64,000 bases of DNA, taken from positions 4,310,001 to 4,374,000 of the forward strand of contig NZ_CP014263.1 of the NCBI RefSeq assembly GCF_001988955.1. The letters are read 5' to 3'. Source of the DNA: Spirosoma montaniterrae (GTDB lineage Bacteria; Bacteroidota; Bacteroidia; Cytophagales; Spirosomataceae). The translations under genes were made by a program, and so were the position numbers. Every line of letters starts with the position of its first letter. The first letter of the stretch is position 1. Shown here one piece after another: positions 2,484 to 46,096 of this stretch. Below the pieces are notes generated by a model. That model was not told where the DNA came from. It saw nothing but the letters and a program-made list of their open reading frames with translations, and did not search any database.

Positions 2484-2620
2484 ACACCCCACCCCAACCC
2501 CTCCCCATTAGGGAGGGGCCAATAGCGAGACTACTTTCTCTTTCTGAGGTATTGGAGTGGGAAAGTAGGTCACCTTTCTAAAGCCCCTCCCCTTTTTTTA
2601 GGGGAGGGGTTGGGGTGGGT
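2484..2620. repeat. C-rich palindromic element between convergent genes
   Basis: A 137-bp element fills the space between the stops of two convergent genes. Its outer arms (2488-2506 and 2601-2619) are a perfect 19-bp inverted repeat of C runs. Inside are the small palindrome CTCCCCATTAGGGAG (2501-2515) and an 8-bp stem CTACTTTC/GAAAGTAG (2531-2538, 2561-2568). A 21-nt core at 2498-2518 is identical to positions 45032-45052 inside purH, so this is a dispersed family rather than a unique terminator. No transposase is present. It probably also stops transcription from both sides. Confidence 0.75.
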
Positions 2621-2627
2621 CTATCAC

Positions 2628-5162
2628 TCAACCAGCATTTTTATTCCGCTCCTCGATAGCCTGCTCAATAACAGCCAGACTTTTCCGCGAACTAAGCAAG
2701 TCAGGATGCTCTGCCGGAAGTACCCGTTCCCATATTGTCAGTGCCTTCTGCATATAGTCAAGTGCCTTGCCTAAATCTCCAGTGTAATAATAGGTAGCAG
2801 CAATGTTGTTGAAGGATTGAGCCAGATCAGGGTGATTGGCCGGTAGCACTGCTTCCCGGATAGCCAACGCTTTCAGATTGTACTCTAAGCGTTTATCCTG
2901 CTGGCCCAACGCACCATACGCTTCGGCAATATTATTGATGGATTGGGCCAGATCAGGGTGATTGGTGGGAAGTACCGCTTCAAAAATAGCCAAGGCGTTC
3001 TGGTTGTAGGCCAGGCGTTCATCGTGCTGGCCCAACGCACGATATGTAGCAGCAATGTTGTTGAAGAAACGGGCCAAGTTGTTGAAGAAACGGGCCAAGA
3101 TTTCGTTTTTTTCATTCGCAAAAAGAGTCAGCCATTCAGCCGTGTAGGGTAGATATACCTGCTTATCGAGCGGATTCTCAGTTGGCTCCGTGTATAGCGC
3201 GTCTGCCATGCCATCCAGTAACCGTTCGCAGTTGGTGGCTGTGGGCTGTAATCGTTCGCGCATTGTCCATTGCACTAAGCCGTGCATGGCAAAATAGCGG
3301 TTGTTGGTGTCGTCTAACCAACCCAGACGGGTCAGTTCCTGCAAGGAGGTCTGTAATTGCTGCTGTTCGGCGGGGGTGTTGGCTCGTAATATTGTCGCTA
3401 AGTGCGTTATGGGTACGTCAATCGTGGGCAGCACGGCGAAGTAGCGGAGCAGTTGTTGGGCGTCGTCGCTTAGGCGGTCGGTGTCGAACAAATCGAGCAG
3501 GATGCGGTAGATGGCTTTCGTCTGGTCGTCTACCTCTACGGGATAGTTGATGGCTTCGTGCCGGTACTCTTTCTGCTCAACAATTGCCCGCAGGTCGGTC
3601 AGTTGGAGCCACGAATTGGCGTAAGCCGCCTTCGCCAGTACCTCAATTAGTTTGGGATGGTAGAATGCCTTCTCCAGTATGGTTTTGACCAATTCGTCTT
3701 CGGCATCGGTCAGGGGGATTGGATACAGGTTTTTAAATAATTGCAGGGCGTCGGCAGGGGTCAATTTCTTTATTTCCTGCACCTTACGTTCCTGCACAAA
3801 CGTTTGCGGGCGCGCGCGGCCCGTAATCAGCACTCTCCCGGCTAAACTCTCCAATGCCCGTTGCCGGAGCCTCAGATCATCGGCATCGTTGGCGTTGTCG
3901 AGTACGAGCAACAGGTTCGGAATCCGGCCCAGCGTGTCGATAAGTGCCTTGAATTTATCGTCGGTGCTGTCTGCCAGATTGGGCGTAAACGCTACGTCGG
4001 GCGAGTTACCCAACTGAATCAGGATACTGTCGGCAATGGTTCCTACAATTTCTACGTAGGCGAGGTGGTCATATCCATCACGCGACCGGGCCATATACGC
4101 TTTGGCGAGGGTAGTTTTGCCAATGCCGCCCATGCCCCGCAGCAGCAACATGTCGTGCCGGGCAAAATGCGCGTCAATCTGACTGAGTTCGTCGGTGCGG
4201 CCCACCAGATTCGTCAGATCGTAGTGGGCAAAGGTGTTGAGGTATTTCTGGCGGGCGGGCGACGTTGGCAGGAGTTTATCAACCTTCTCACGGATATCAG
4301 TCAGGCTTTCGTTTGCCTGCCCAACGCCAATCTGTACCGTATCAACTTTGTTTTCGATACGTTCCAGCGTAATCAACATGTCATCCAACCGGCTCATTAC
4401 TTCATCGAAACGGTCCACGATGGGCTGCATGGCCTTACCGAGTTGGGCGGCCAAATCGGTCAACTGCTCCGGCGAAATACTGATTTGCGGCACGTTGGCC
4501 TTAACGGTCAGCAACAACTCCTTTACGTCCTGAAGCAGATTGGTCTGGACGACGCTTTGCAGGCGGGTGTTGGTTTTGAGGCTTTCCGCAAAAAATGCAC
4601 ACAGCAACTCAAACCAGTCCATCGACTGGCCTTTGTCCGTCCAGCCCGTCAGGATGGCGGTGCGTAGGTCGTCTTCAATGCCCAGATTAGCCTGTTCCAG
4701 TTCCTGCAACATACCCTTCCGGACCTGTAGCTGTAGTTCTGCCAATCGTTCGCTGGCCGGTACGCCTTTGGGTTGCAACAGCAGTTCGTATTCGGTCACG
4801 GCGGGGTTGTCGGGCAGCGCGAATTTGACATCTGACAGTTGTTTGCGCTGCTTCTTCAGGTAGCTGATTACCTCTTTTAAATCCCAGGCCGGGAAATGGA
4901 ACAAACGGTCGGCTACGTTGTACTTATTACGGAGCAGATGCTCGCAGATAACCAACGTAGCGTTCAGGTGCGCTTCCCGAACCGCCCGGTGAATATCGTG
5001 ATTGACCGGCTGGGTCTGGGTGCGGAGCCGCTCGTAGATGACTTTGCCCGCTTTGCTCAGTAGCTGGTCGCTACCTTTGCCTAACCAGTTACCGATCAGG
5101 CACTCTGCGATTTTGGTAGTGGTTAAACATTGGGTAACAAGCCCGATAGTCAATGGGTCCAT
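2628..5162 (-). CDS. STAND-type NTPase with C-terminal TPR repeats
   Basis: An 844-residue signal-transduction NTPase. Residues 1-250 are an unassigned helical region; about 250-300 looks like a coiled coil (RIENKVDTVQIGVGQ..). The nucleotide-binding module has Walker A GMGGIGKTT (343-351), Walker B LLLVLDNAND (417-426) and a sensor-like VLITGRAR (444-451), followed by winged-helix-like sequence with MHGLVQWTMRERL near 630. The C-terminus (about 690-830) has kinesin-light-chain-like TPRs of 42 residues with HPDLAQSINNIAEAYGALGQ signatures. This order (effector, STAND NTPase, sensor repeats) is known from regulators and from Avs-type anti-phage proteins, but no recognised effector is visible. 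Two toxin-antitoxin pairs lie nearby. It is probably monocistronic. Confidence 0.8.
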   Translation of the reverse strand: MDPLTIGLVTQCLTTTKIAECLIGNWLGKGSDQLLSKAGKVIYERLRTQTQPVNHDIHRAVREAHLNATLVICEHLLRNKYNVADRLFHFPAWDLKEVISYLKKQRKQLSDVKFALPDNPAVTEYELLLQPKGVPASERLAELQLQVRKGMLQELEQANLGIEDDLRTAILTGWTDKGQSMDWFELLCAFFAESLKTNTRLQSVVQTNLLQDVKELLLTVKANVPQISISPEQLTDLAAQLGKAMQPIVDRFDEVMSRLDDMLITLERIENKVDTVQIGVGQANESLTDIREKVDKLLPTSPARQKYLNTFAHYDLTNLVGRTDELSQIDAHFARHDMLLLRGMGGIGKTTLAKAYMARSRDGYDHLAYVEIVGTIADSILIQLGNSPDVAFTPNLADSTDDKFKALIDTLGRIPNLLLVLDNANDADDLRLRQRALESLAGRVLITGRARPQTFVQERKVQEIKKLTPADALQLFKNLYPIPLTDAEDELVKTILEKAFYHPKLIEVLAKAAYANSWLQLTDLRAIVEQKEYRHEAINYPVEVDDQTKAIYRILLDLFDTDRLSDDAQQLLRYFAVLPTIDVPITHLATILRANTPAEQQQLQTSLQELTRLGWLDDTNNRYFAMHGLVQWTMRERLQPTATNCERLLDGMADALYTEPTENPLDKQVYLPYTAEWLTLFANEKNEILARFFNNLARFFNNIAATYRALGQHDERLAYNQNALAIFEAVLPTNHPDLAQSINNIAEAYGALGQQDKRLEYNLKALAIREAVLPANHPDLAQSFNNIAATYYYTGDLGKALDYMQKALTIWERVLPAEHPDLLSSRKSLAVIEQAIEERNKNAG
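3057..3098. repeat. 21-bp exact tandem duplication inside the STAND gene
   Basis: The 21-bp unit GTTGTTGAAGAAACGGGCCAA is present twice in direct succession (3057-3077, 3078-3098). In the protein it gives LARFFNN twice, just before the first TPR. It sits beside near-identical 126-bp TPR units, which points to recent slippage or unequal recombination in the sensor part of the gene. Confidence 0.9.
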
Positions 5163-44359: not shown

Positions 44360-44432
44360 GGCCGAAACAGGCTCCGGCTGTTTCGTGTCGTGTGCTTAAC
44401 TTCTTCTGAAGCAGTCGGAGCCTGTTTCGGCC
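44360..44432 (+). promoter_or_regulatory. purH leader with two competing hairpins
   Basis: A perfect 17-bp inverted repeat (44360-44376 GGCCGAAACAGGCTCCG, and 44416-44432) spans the 5' leader and ends 6 nt before the purH ATG. The inner word CGAAACAG (44363-44370) can pair instead with CTGTTTCG at 44378-44385. The two foldings exclude each other; only the long one covers the ribosome site. This could regulate purH. No known purine riboswitch sequence is recognised. Confidence 0.5.
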
Positions 44433-44438
44433 AAACGC

Positions 44439-45995
44439 ATGTCTTCCAAAATATCTTCCGCATTAATTTCCGTCTACTACAAAGACGGCCTTGAGCCGCT
44501 GGTTCAATTGCTTCACCAACAGGGCGTTAAACTTTATTCAACAGGAGGCACCCAGTCGTTCATCGAACAACTGGGCATTCCGGTAGTGGCTGTTGAGGCT
44601 ATTACGGGCTACCCATCGATTTTTGGCGGACGGGTAAAAACGCTGCACCCGGCGGTGATGGGCGGCATTCTGTACCGGCGTGATGTAGACAGTGATCTCG
44701 AACAGGCTCAAAAGCACGAGATTCCGCCCATCGATATGGTCGTGGTCGATCTGTATCCATTTGAGGAAACGGTAGCGTCAGGCGCATCGGACGAAGACAT
44801 CATTGAAAAGATTGACATCGGCGGAATTTCGCTGATTCGGGCGGCTGCCAAAAATCACAACGATGTACTTATCGTATCCTCACGCGACCAATACGCCGAT
44901 GTTGTGAAACTGCTGACCGAAAAAGATGGCAGCACCGACCTCGCCGACCGTCGGCAGTATGCGGGCGCGGCCTTTCGGGTCACGTCGCAGTACGACACGG
45001 CTATTCAGACCTATTTCAACCCCGCCCCCGTCCCCTCCCCATTAGGGAGGGGTGAAGACCATCCAAGAACAGCCCCCCTCCCTAACGGGGAGGGGACGGG
45101 GGTGGGGTTGCGCTACGGCGAAAACCCGCACCAGCAGGCTACATTCTACGGCGATTTGGATGCTATGTTCGACAAACTACACGGTAAAGAATTGTCGTTC
45201 AATAACTTAGTCGACGTTGATGCCTGCGTCGGGCTGATTGATGAGTTCAGCGAAACAACGTTTGCCATTATCAAGCACACCAATGCCTGTGGCATTGCTT
45301 CGGCATCGACCCCGAAAGAAGCTTATCTGAACGCGCTGGCCTGCGACCCGGTTTCGGCTTTCGGAGGTGTCGTGATTACCAACGCGCCGGTTGATCTGGA
45401 AACTGCTGAAGAGTTGAACAAACTGTTCATGGAAATCCTGATTGCACCCGACTTCGCGCCCGAAGCCCTCGATCTGTTACGCTCGAAGAAGAACCGGATT
45501 CTGCTAAAACGCAAGCCCGCTGAACTGCCATCGAAGTTAGTCAAAACCATTTTGAACGGCCTGCTCGAACAAGACAAAGACAACCAGACCGAAACCGCCG
45601 ACCAGTTTAAGACCGTTACGCTCAAAAGCCCCACCGACAGCGAGTTACGTGCGCTGGAGTTTGCGCTCAAAGTCTGCAAACACACCAAGTCGAACACCAT
45701 TGTGCTGGCAAAGGAAAATCAGTTGCTGGCGAGTGGCGTGGGGCAAACCTCACGCGTCGATGCGTTGCGGCAAGCCATCGAGAAAGCACGTGCATTTGGC
45801 TTCGATCTGACCGGAGCCGTAATGGCGTCGGATGCGTTTTTCCCCTTTCCCGACTGCGTTGAAATAGCGCATCAGGCGGGCATTACGGCGGTGGTGCAGC
45901 CCGGCGGTTCTATCCGCGACCAGGATTCTATCGACTACTGTAATCAGCACGGCCTGGCAATGGTGACTACGGGCGTGCGACATTTTAAACATTAA
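44439..45995 (+). CDS. purH: Bifunctional AICAR formyltransferase / IMP cyclohydrolase, with repeat-derived insert
   Basis: A 518-residue enzyme for the last two steps of IMP synthesis. The cyclohydrolase (MGS-like) domain (1 to about 150) has STGGTQSFI, GFP-like ITGYPSIFGGRVKTLHP and IDIGGISLIRAAAKNH. The transformylase part starts at LRYGENPHQQATFY (about 226), with the catalytic Lys-His in IKHTNACGIAS and ACDPVSAFGGVV. Between YDTAIQTYFN and LRYGENPHQ about 30 residues (PAPVPSPLGRGEDHPRTAPL etc., about 194-224) are encoded by a palindromic element. The usual homologue has a different short linker there. The rest looks intact. Confidence 0.93.
   Translation: MSSKISSALISVYYKDGLEPLVQLLHQQGVKLYSTGGTQSFIEQLGIPVVAVEAITGYPSIFGGRVKTLHPAVMGGILYRRDVDSDLEQAQKHEIPPIDMVVVDLYPFEETVASGASDEDIIEKIDIGGISLIRAAAKNHNDVLIVSSRDQYADVVKLLTEKDGSTDLADRRQYAGAAFRVTSQYDTAIQTYFNPAPVPSPLGRGEDHPRTAPLPNGEGTGVGLRYGENPHQQATFYGDLDAMFDKLHGKELSFNNLVDVDACVGLIDEFSETTFAIIKHTNACGIASASTPKEAYLNALACDPVSAFGGVVITNAPVDLETAEELNKLFMEILIAPDFAPEALDLLRSKKNRILLKRKPAELPSKLVKTILNGLLEQDKDNQTETADQFKTVTLKSPTDSELRALEFALKVCKHTKSNTIVLAKENQLLASGVGQTSRVDALRQAIEKARAFGFDLTGAVMASDAFFPFPDCVEIAHQAGITAVVQPGGSIRDQDSIDYCNQHGLAMVTTGVRHFKH
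45017..45110. repeat. C-rich palindromic element inside purH
   Basis: Arms 45017-45052 and 45075-45110 pair over 36 bp with 2 mismatches and a 22-nt loop. A 21-nt core (45032-45052) is identical to 2498-2518 in the intergenic copy. The frame stays open through the element and gives Pro/Gly-rich sequence (PSPLGRG...PLPNGEGTGVG). Confidence 0.9.
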
Positions 45996-46096
45996 CTGTG
46001 ATTCGTCGGATTATACTGACTGACTATGATTTTATTGATTCACTGCCGAAGGCGAAATAATCATAGTCAGTCAGCATAATCCGATGAATCACAGTT
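45994..46096. repeat. 38-bp hairpin of GACTGACT words between purH and plsC
   Basis: Arms 45994-46031 and 46059-46096 pair over 38 bp with 2 mismatches and a 27-nt loop. It begins inside the purH stop codon and ends 13 nt before the plsC start, so it fills the gap. Words such as ACTGACTGACTATGATT build the arms. No T tract. Confidence 0.92.

Follow-up and report, generated by a model that had tools for sequence, protein, structure and literature searches.

A palindromic element of a dispersed repeat family forms the inter-domain linker of PurH in Spirosoma montaniterrae

In-frame palindromes are already known in the form of RPEs and intragenic REPs, which we summarize here from passages of the papers cited. 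The Rickettsia palindromic elements (RPEs; Ogata et al. 2000) are palindromic repeats of ~100 bp that occur in intergenic DNA as well as in frame within conserved proteins (PMC2229807, PMC3733652), and activity is reported for a guanylate kinase bearing an RPE (Abergel et al. 2006, via PMC2229807). Intragenic dimers of REPs of the GTAG and CGTC superfamilies are read in frame as 20-30 residues, in genes including uvrA and those of tRNA synthetases, and in recB of two Xanthomonas the REPs lie at about the same site (PMC3733652). REPINs comprise two inverted REP-like hairpins forming one large hairpin, such that the doublet is the unit; the passages drawn on describe them as extragenic (PMC3116915). 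In the mitochondria of Nematomorpha, long inverted repeats lie within the genes of working proteins (PMC6649704).

We have analysed a palindrome in the purH gene of Spirosoma montaniterrae, in a stretch of DNA of 64,000 nucleotides (the window) from a single-contig genome of 5.80 Mb that is 99.99% complete. The features are collected in Table 1; G, P and L numbers are our handles for genomes, proteins and loci. The identity of PurH is supported by PDB matches to 3zzm and others, and the protein is 78-84% identical to its same-genus relatives and retains the conserved residues. A preliminary description had placed a 94-bp palindrome within purH that keeps the frame open, and both points are borne out: the two arms are 94% complementary and 22 nt apart, and the ORF runs intact across them. 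From the third base of codon 193 the element runs to the end of codon 224, immediately 5′ of RYGENPHQ, a conserved sequence that belongs to the second domain. It encodes the 31-residue peptide NPAPVPSPLGRGEDHPRTAPLPNGEGTGVGL, with Pro or Gly at 13 positions, and its RNA has a predicted folding energy of -81.5 kcal/mol. In an AF2 model (mean pLDDT 73.5, pTM 0.67) pLDDT falls below 50 over residues 196-218, which lie between the two domains; within the moderate confidence of the model, this agrees with a disordered linker. A single match to purH in the genome is full-length, and the 24 others from the same search are element peptides, so the earlier claim that the element is tolerated at the domain linker stands. 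The gene is framed by two further kinds of palindrome, one of GGCCGAAACAGGCTCCG type just 5′ (window 44360-44432; fold -52.6 kcal/mol) and one of CTGTGATTCGTCGGATTA type directly 3′ (window 45996-46094; fold -58.4 kcal/mol).

Table 1. Features of the purH locus, a further copy in the window, and host ORFs with in-frame F1 copies.
Feature	Position in window	Strand	Basis
purH ORF, 518 aa (IMP cyclohydrolase part, linker, AICAR transformylase part)	44439..45995	+	open frame; PDB matches; genus relatives
F1 palindromic element of purH, codons 194-224, the entire inter-domain linker; 36-nt arms at 45017-45052 and 45075-45110	45017..45110	.	
Left outer arm, CAACCCCGCCCCCGT	45017..45031	.	
Left hairpin unit, CCCCTCCC-CATTA-GGGAGGGG	45032..45052	.	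hairpin pattern, also genome-wide
Centre, 22 nt, with CCATCC as in a subfamily of other F1 copies	45053..45074	.	
Right hairpin unit, CCCCTCCC-TAACG-GGGAGGGG	45075..45095	.	hairpin pattern
Right outer arm, ACGGGGGTGGGGTTG	45096..45110	.	
Other two-armed F1 copy, longer, with unlike centre	2486..2620	.	
Host ORF, MFS transporter			Pfam/PDB
Host ORF, MiaB			Pfam/PDB
Host ORF, phosphoesterase, plus beta-propeller match below cut-off			Pfam/PDB
Host ORF, LeuRS			Pfam/PDB
Host ORF, C39-peptidase ABC transporter			Pfam/PDB
Host ORF, alpha-amylase			Pfam/PDB
Host ORF, B12-binding/MeaB/mutase fusion			Pfam/PDB
Host ORF, OPT transporter			Pfam/PDB
Host ORF, FAD-linked oxidase (two F1 copies)			Pfam/PDB
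Host ORF, UvrA			Pfam/PDB
Host ORFs, PurH and one further ORF			outside the 10 named by Pfam/PDB

The element is a member of a repeat family, as had been proposed, which we term F1. The typical F1 doublet opens with an outer arm (for example ACCCCACCCC and a few further bases), followed by a hairpin CCCCTCCC-N5-GGGAGGGG, a centre of ~21-31 nt and then the inverted copy, giving two inverted hairpin units in a length that is mostly ~83-100 bp. The hairpin pattern with up to 3 mismatches has 9 matches in the window (overlapping, both strands) against 0.18 expected, and 9 or more were found in 0/100 shuffles. The whole genome has 166 forward sites when up to 2 mismatches are allowed, and 105 exact sites, the control giving 0 in each case. 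The 35 genus relatives have 0-11 exact sites (G030 11, G002 10, G028 2, G003, G005 and G024 one each, the other 29 none). Exact doublets among 222 genomes of the family number 37 in this genome, 8 in G216, 3 in G030, 2 in G195 and one each in G028 and G002, with none in the other 216. The concentration of both counts in this genome indicates a burst of F1 in this lineage. A known RNA family is ruled out, as the 20 matches up to E 1 all fall under the gathering score and are mostly to miRNA models of the sort matched by long hairpins in general. No F1 match was found in plasmid and phage collections, from which records near the genome of the window may be missing.

Individual copies were read in 50 stretches around listed sites together with the window, taken from the exact hairpins of approximately the first 3.78 Mb and from BLAST matches. 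These gave 59 two-armed elements, of which 57 are F1 and 2 belong to another family; 9 single or atypical sites were left out. At G000:C1:2482540-2482728 and 3736933-3737431 the F1 arms are ~110 and ~410 bp apart, as if other DNA lay between the halves.

The preliminary description had suggested mapping further in-frame copies, and 13 of the 57 two-armed copies prove to be in frame, in 12 ORFs that include purH. A copy was called in frame where no stop interrupts the frame across the element and the sequence to either side looks coding; the hosts were named from Pfam and PDB matches, Pfam being run on 10 of the 12. The B12-binding/MeaB/mutase fusion is one that we take to be IcmF-like. Nine of the 13 peptides are of the PSPLGRG..PLPNGEG kind and four of the SPSLTGRGW kind. 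The common F1 hairpin is free of stop codons in two of the three frames, the third yielding TAG or TAA in the loop. Some copies fall inside a domain match and thus outside linkers, e.g. in the ABC ATPase of L074. The match between arms is similar for in-frame and other copies (median 0.956, n=12, vs 0.971, n=44; p 0.69), which is compatible either with recent insertion or with maintenance of the palindrome. In G030 an in-frame F1 lies in a 736-aa ORF (L110 ~3997-4087; G030:C5:321996-322086).

The element was originally described as an insert of about 30 Pro/Gly-rich residues added to an insert-free PurH. The residues are there, and none of the 35 same-genus relatives carries them, with or without a hairpin; there is, however, no net gain of length. 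All 35 lack F1 at this site and have a linker of their own of 22-36 aa, compared with 31 aa in S. montaniterrae. Most of these linkers terminate in a DFKxLPxNHL-like stretch that is absent from the S. montaniterrae protein, from which it follows that the element took the place of the native linker. Plain addition of 94 bp is therefore ruled out, and what is observed is replacement of the native PurH linker by an F1 element.

Orthologs free of the element are found at 9 of the 12 other in-frame sites, with the exception of a half-element in MiaB of G030; the remaining 3 had no ortholog in the loci fetched. Native loop residues are absent at 8 of the 9 sites alignable with orthologs. LeuRS and UvrA each lack three native residues, the five relatives in each case all having a plain turn of that length; ~14-18 are missing at the phosphoesterase and OPT sites, and a few at one site in the FAD-linked oxidase. 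At the first mutase site the loop of relatives ranges from a few residues (by match lengths) to 31 in G030. In the amylase the loop apart from the element is of about the same length as in relatives and no residues seem to be missing, so insertion does not always entail replacement. The half-element in G030 MiaB occupies the place of ~20 nt of G021, the purH regions of these two genomes being 86% identical. The loss of native loops may be part of the insertion or may reflect later trimming. The preliminary description spoke of direct evidence for spread into coding sequence; the copies and their element-free orthologs are indeed observed, and from these we infer movement.

In other species the loops of PurH, MiaB, the mutase and the phosphoesterase also contain palindromes, which belong to several sequence types. 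Stem scores of 10 or more are found in 9/31 distinct loops of MiaB, 6/16 of the mutase, 3/12 of the phosphoesterase (G002 lying outside the search motif) and 2/74 of PurH, compared with 0/2650 control windows beside the four loops, where the maximum is 9. Together with the shuffles and the genome control, these windows rule out a chance hairpin. The two PurH linkers, of S. montaniterrae and G223, have stem scores of 29 and 23, and the PurH flanking controls reach 10 in 0/1480; the survey used a wider anchor, the narrower one (74 scored, 8 without anchor) having missed G223. As the other three loops were picked after palindromes had been seen in them, these rates are not genome-wide estimates.

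In the mutase loop that follows CEKW there is an F1 copy in frame in G030, and another palindrome in G021 with near-identical flanks. The same loop in S. montaniterrae contains a palindrome of another family, of CTCACCCCCGG type, with a frame shift behind it, and the gene looks broken. In that ORF (L079 ~4721-4806; G000:C1:1881220-1881305) F1 is in frame and the other-family palindrome lies further on; in G019, too, different short frames lie on the two sides of this mutase loop. F1 occupies the phosphoesterase loop that follows GDIQLG in S. montaniterrae, G028 and G002. Between the latter two the arms are nearly identical while the flanking codons differ, a pattern compatible with either recent insertion or palindrome upkeep. 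The MiaB loop has F1 in S. montaniterrae as well as the half-element in G030, and a match in G002 is placed between MiaB flanks by its position; long palindromes unlike F1 in sequence, e.g. of AGGAGCGAGGAG and AGCCCCCCAACCCCC types, are found in further MiaB loops. In five species (G035, G025, G016, G014 and G026; L391, L394, L400, L406, L411) the MiaB loop has palindromes of AGGAGCGAGGAG type that BLAST places in a single group. The PurH linker of G223 has a AGCCCCCCAGCCCCC-type palindrome, and that of G012 a decayed one before LPASHL; a second copy of the latter is weakly matched at another place in G012 (E 0.1 and 0.6). By BLAST, 17 loop palindromes fall into nine groups, one joined partly through shared flanks; the purine-rich MiaB group of G013 may be low-complexity. 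The same loops are thus used by several palindrome families.

We consider it probable that F1 is a REPIN-like, non-autonomous mobile palindrome that has expanded in this lineage, lies in the purH linker, and whose genic survivors are gathered in tolerant loops. F1 would have multiplied, one copy reaching the inter-domain linker of PurH, where a net change of length by a multiple of three and a stop-free hairpin would leave the gene open and supply a Pro/Gly-rich coil; the native linker would have been lost with the insertion or afterwards. Gene-breaking insertions would be purged, so that survivors within genes collect in a few length-tolerant loops, struck by several families in different species.

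The genome has 3 Y1_Tnp genes, and the F1 hairpin is absent from the loci around them (~1.5 kb each side). Nor do Y1 counts track F1 across the 36 genus genomes, so that a RAYT-linked REPIN is ruled out. Target-site duplications of 3 or more bases, looked for as the mark of a MITE of a DDE transposon, were found at 4/58 copies compared with 1.6 ± 1.25 in shuffles, which is no clear sign of duplication. With Y1 genes that have no F1 nearby and no clear target duplication, F1 behaves in a REPIN- or RPE-like manner without the RAYT link that defines REPINs. Inverted extension of the arms beyond the element, over at least 4 flanking bases, is seen at 5/58 copies (two of another family) against 0.58 in shuffles, with one more copy seen by eye; these are too few to use. 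Another repeat, FYRRCAVTSLRDNG-like in translation, adjoins a Y1 transposase gene (L051 ~1047-1343).

An alternative that we regard as rather unlikely is that the purH insertion is old, coming from an ancestor common to P0002, and that hairpin-based repair, or conversion by other F1 copies, has since kept its arms matched to each other. Among the 120 PurH matches listed, one of which is the query, P0002 (84% identical) has in its linker QRNPTPGPSPVGRGEEKAEPAPLPTGEGLGVGL, of the same type as the element peptide. In a tree of 60 PurH sequences without linkers it is the sister of S. montaniterrae (98/84), so the insertion may be older and inherited. Upkeep of arms would also fit the near-identical arms of the G028 and G002 phosphoesterases in spite of their differing codons. 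Moreover, the halves of an F1 copy change together, resembling each other more than halves across copies (29.15 vs 24.25 ± 0.54 for 52 copies, reached in 0/5000 shuffles). Against this, P0059, next in the tree (98/92), has an unlike linker, and P0002, known here from protein alone, has two extra residues before the element. Unrelated families also occupy other loops species by species, a pattern that inheritance cannot give.

It is also conceivable, though improbable, that an older palindrome of another family in the linker was swapped for F1 by recombination or template switching between hairpins. Different families do occur in one loop in different species, as in the mutase of G030 and G021, and the PurH linkers of G012 and G223 hold other palindromes. 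However, short and unlike sequences recombine poorly with each other, and in UvrA and LeuRS all five relatives have only the plain turn at the site.

That the hairpin is kept for a function, the mRNA structure slowing the ribosome and giving the first domain time to fold ahead of the second, seems to us very improbable. The strong fold lies exactly at the domain boundary, yet the F1 hairpin is absent from all 35 genus relatives, whose linkers look native save the decayed one of G012. Just two of the 74 distinct PurH linkers are strongly palindromic, and F1 is repeated in many unrelated places. An assembly artefact or a dead purH is scarcely credible: the frame-shifted mutase ORF shows that broken genes do occur in this genome, but nothing was found to support this for purH itself, the sole full-length copy in a single-contig and nearly complete assembly, open and with its conserved residues, and F1 is in frame in 11 further ORFs.

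F1 as a putative mobile palindrome can be compared with the systems introduced above, on the passages of the papers used. It resembles RPEs in being a palindrome of ~100 bp that lies in frame in conserved genes; the host differs, as does the sequence type, judged by eye, and replacement of a native linker and unrelated families in the same loops are on the F1 side. Like REPINs it has an inverted hairpin pair able to form one hairpin, but there is no RAYT gene beside it and it is found inside genes as well, REPINs being described in that paper as extragenic. Neither REP superfamily tag is constant in F1; GTAG occurs in the outer 20 bases of 0/56 copies, and CGTC in an arm of 13/56, in both arms of 9. 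The passages of PMC3733652 drawn on do not describe native-loop replacement or several families per loop beyond the remark on recB. In the palindromes of Nematomorpha both arms encode conserved protein, whereas F1 encodes a loop and is a dispersed repeat. The F1 family, linker replacement and reuse of loops by several families look new as far as the openly licensed literature goes; a search of it showed no paper on F1, and none on several palindrome families per loop apart from that same remark.

A doublet scan of genome contigs gave at least 119 stretches, part of them tandem rather than inverted, and the titles among the matches listed include Bacteroidota, Alphaproteobacteria, Nitrospirota, Planctomycetes, a cyanobacterium, Chloroflexota, Actinomycetota and others. 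The pattern places no constraint on the outer arms; on the left these are C-rich (121 matches at 116 loci, among the matches listed). Among the same listed matches the complementarity of the outer arms exceeds that of shuffled arms, e.g. at position 1 (0.49 vs 0.24) and position 12 (0.60 vs 0.38), with no difference at positions 5 and 6. At the level of sequence this suggests a C-rich REP-like superfamily beyond the genus, common descent not being implied.

We tentatively raise a broader possibility, that a small set of protein loops in the genus is a repeated landing ground for unrelated palindromes, which would replace the old loop, decay into an ordinary loop and be replaced again. In that case palindromes would constantly supply material for the evolution of linkers in essential enzymes, and some of the present variable 'native' loops may be worn-out elements; the F1 architecture could perhaps represent a third, C-rich REP superfamily across many phyla. 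In purH, mobile hairpin DNA would have become the linker of an enzyme in a free-living genus, and one loop struck by different families provides natural replicates. As element-free relatives are at hand, it becomes testable whether selfish repeats within genes do no more than persist in loops where they cause no harm, or whether they feed the evolution of proteins.
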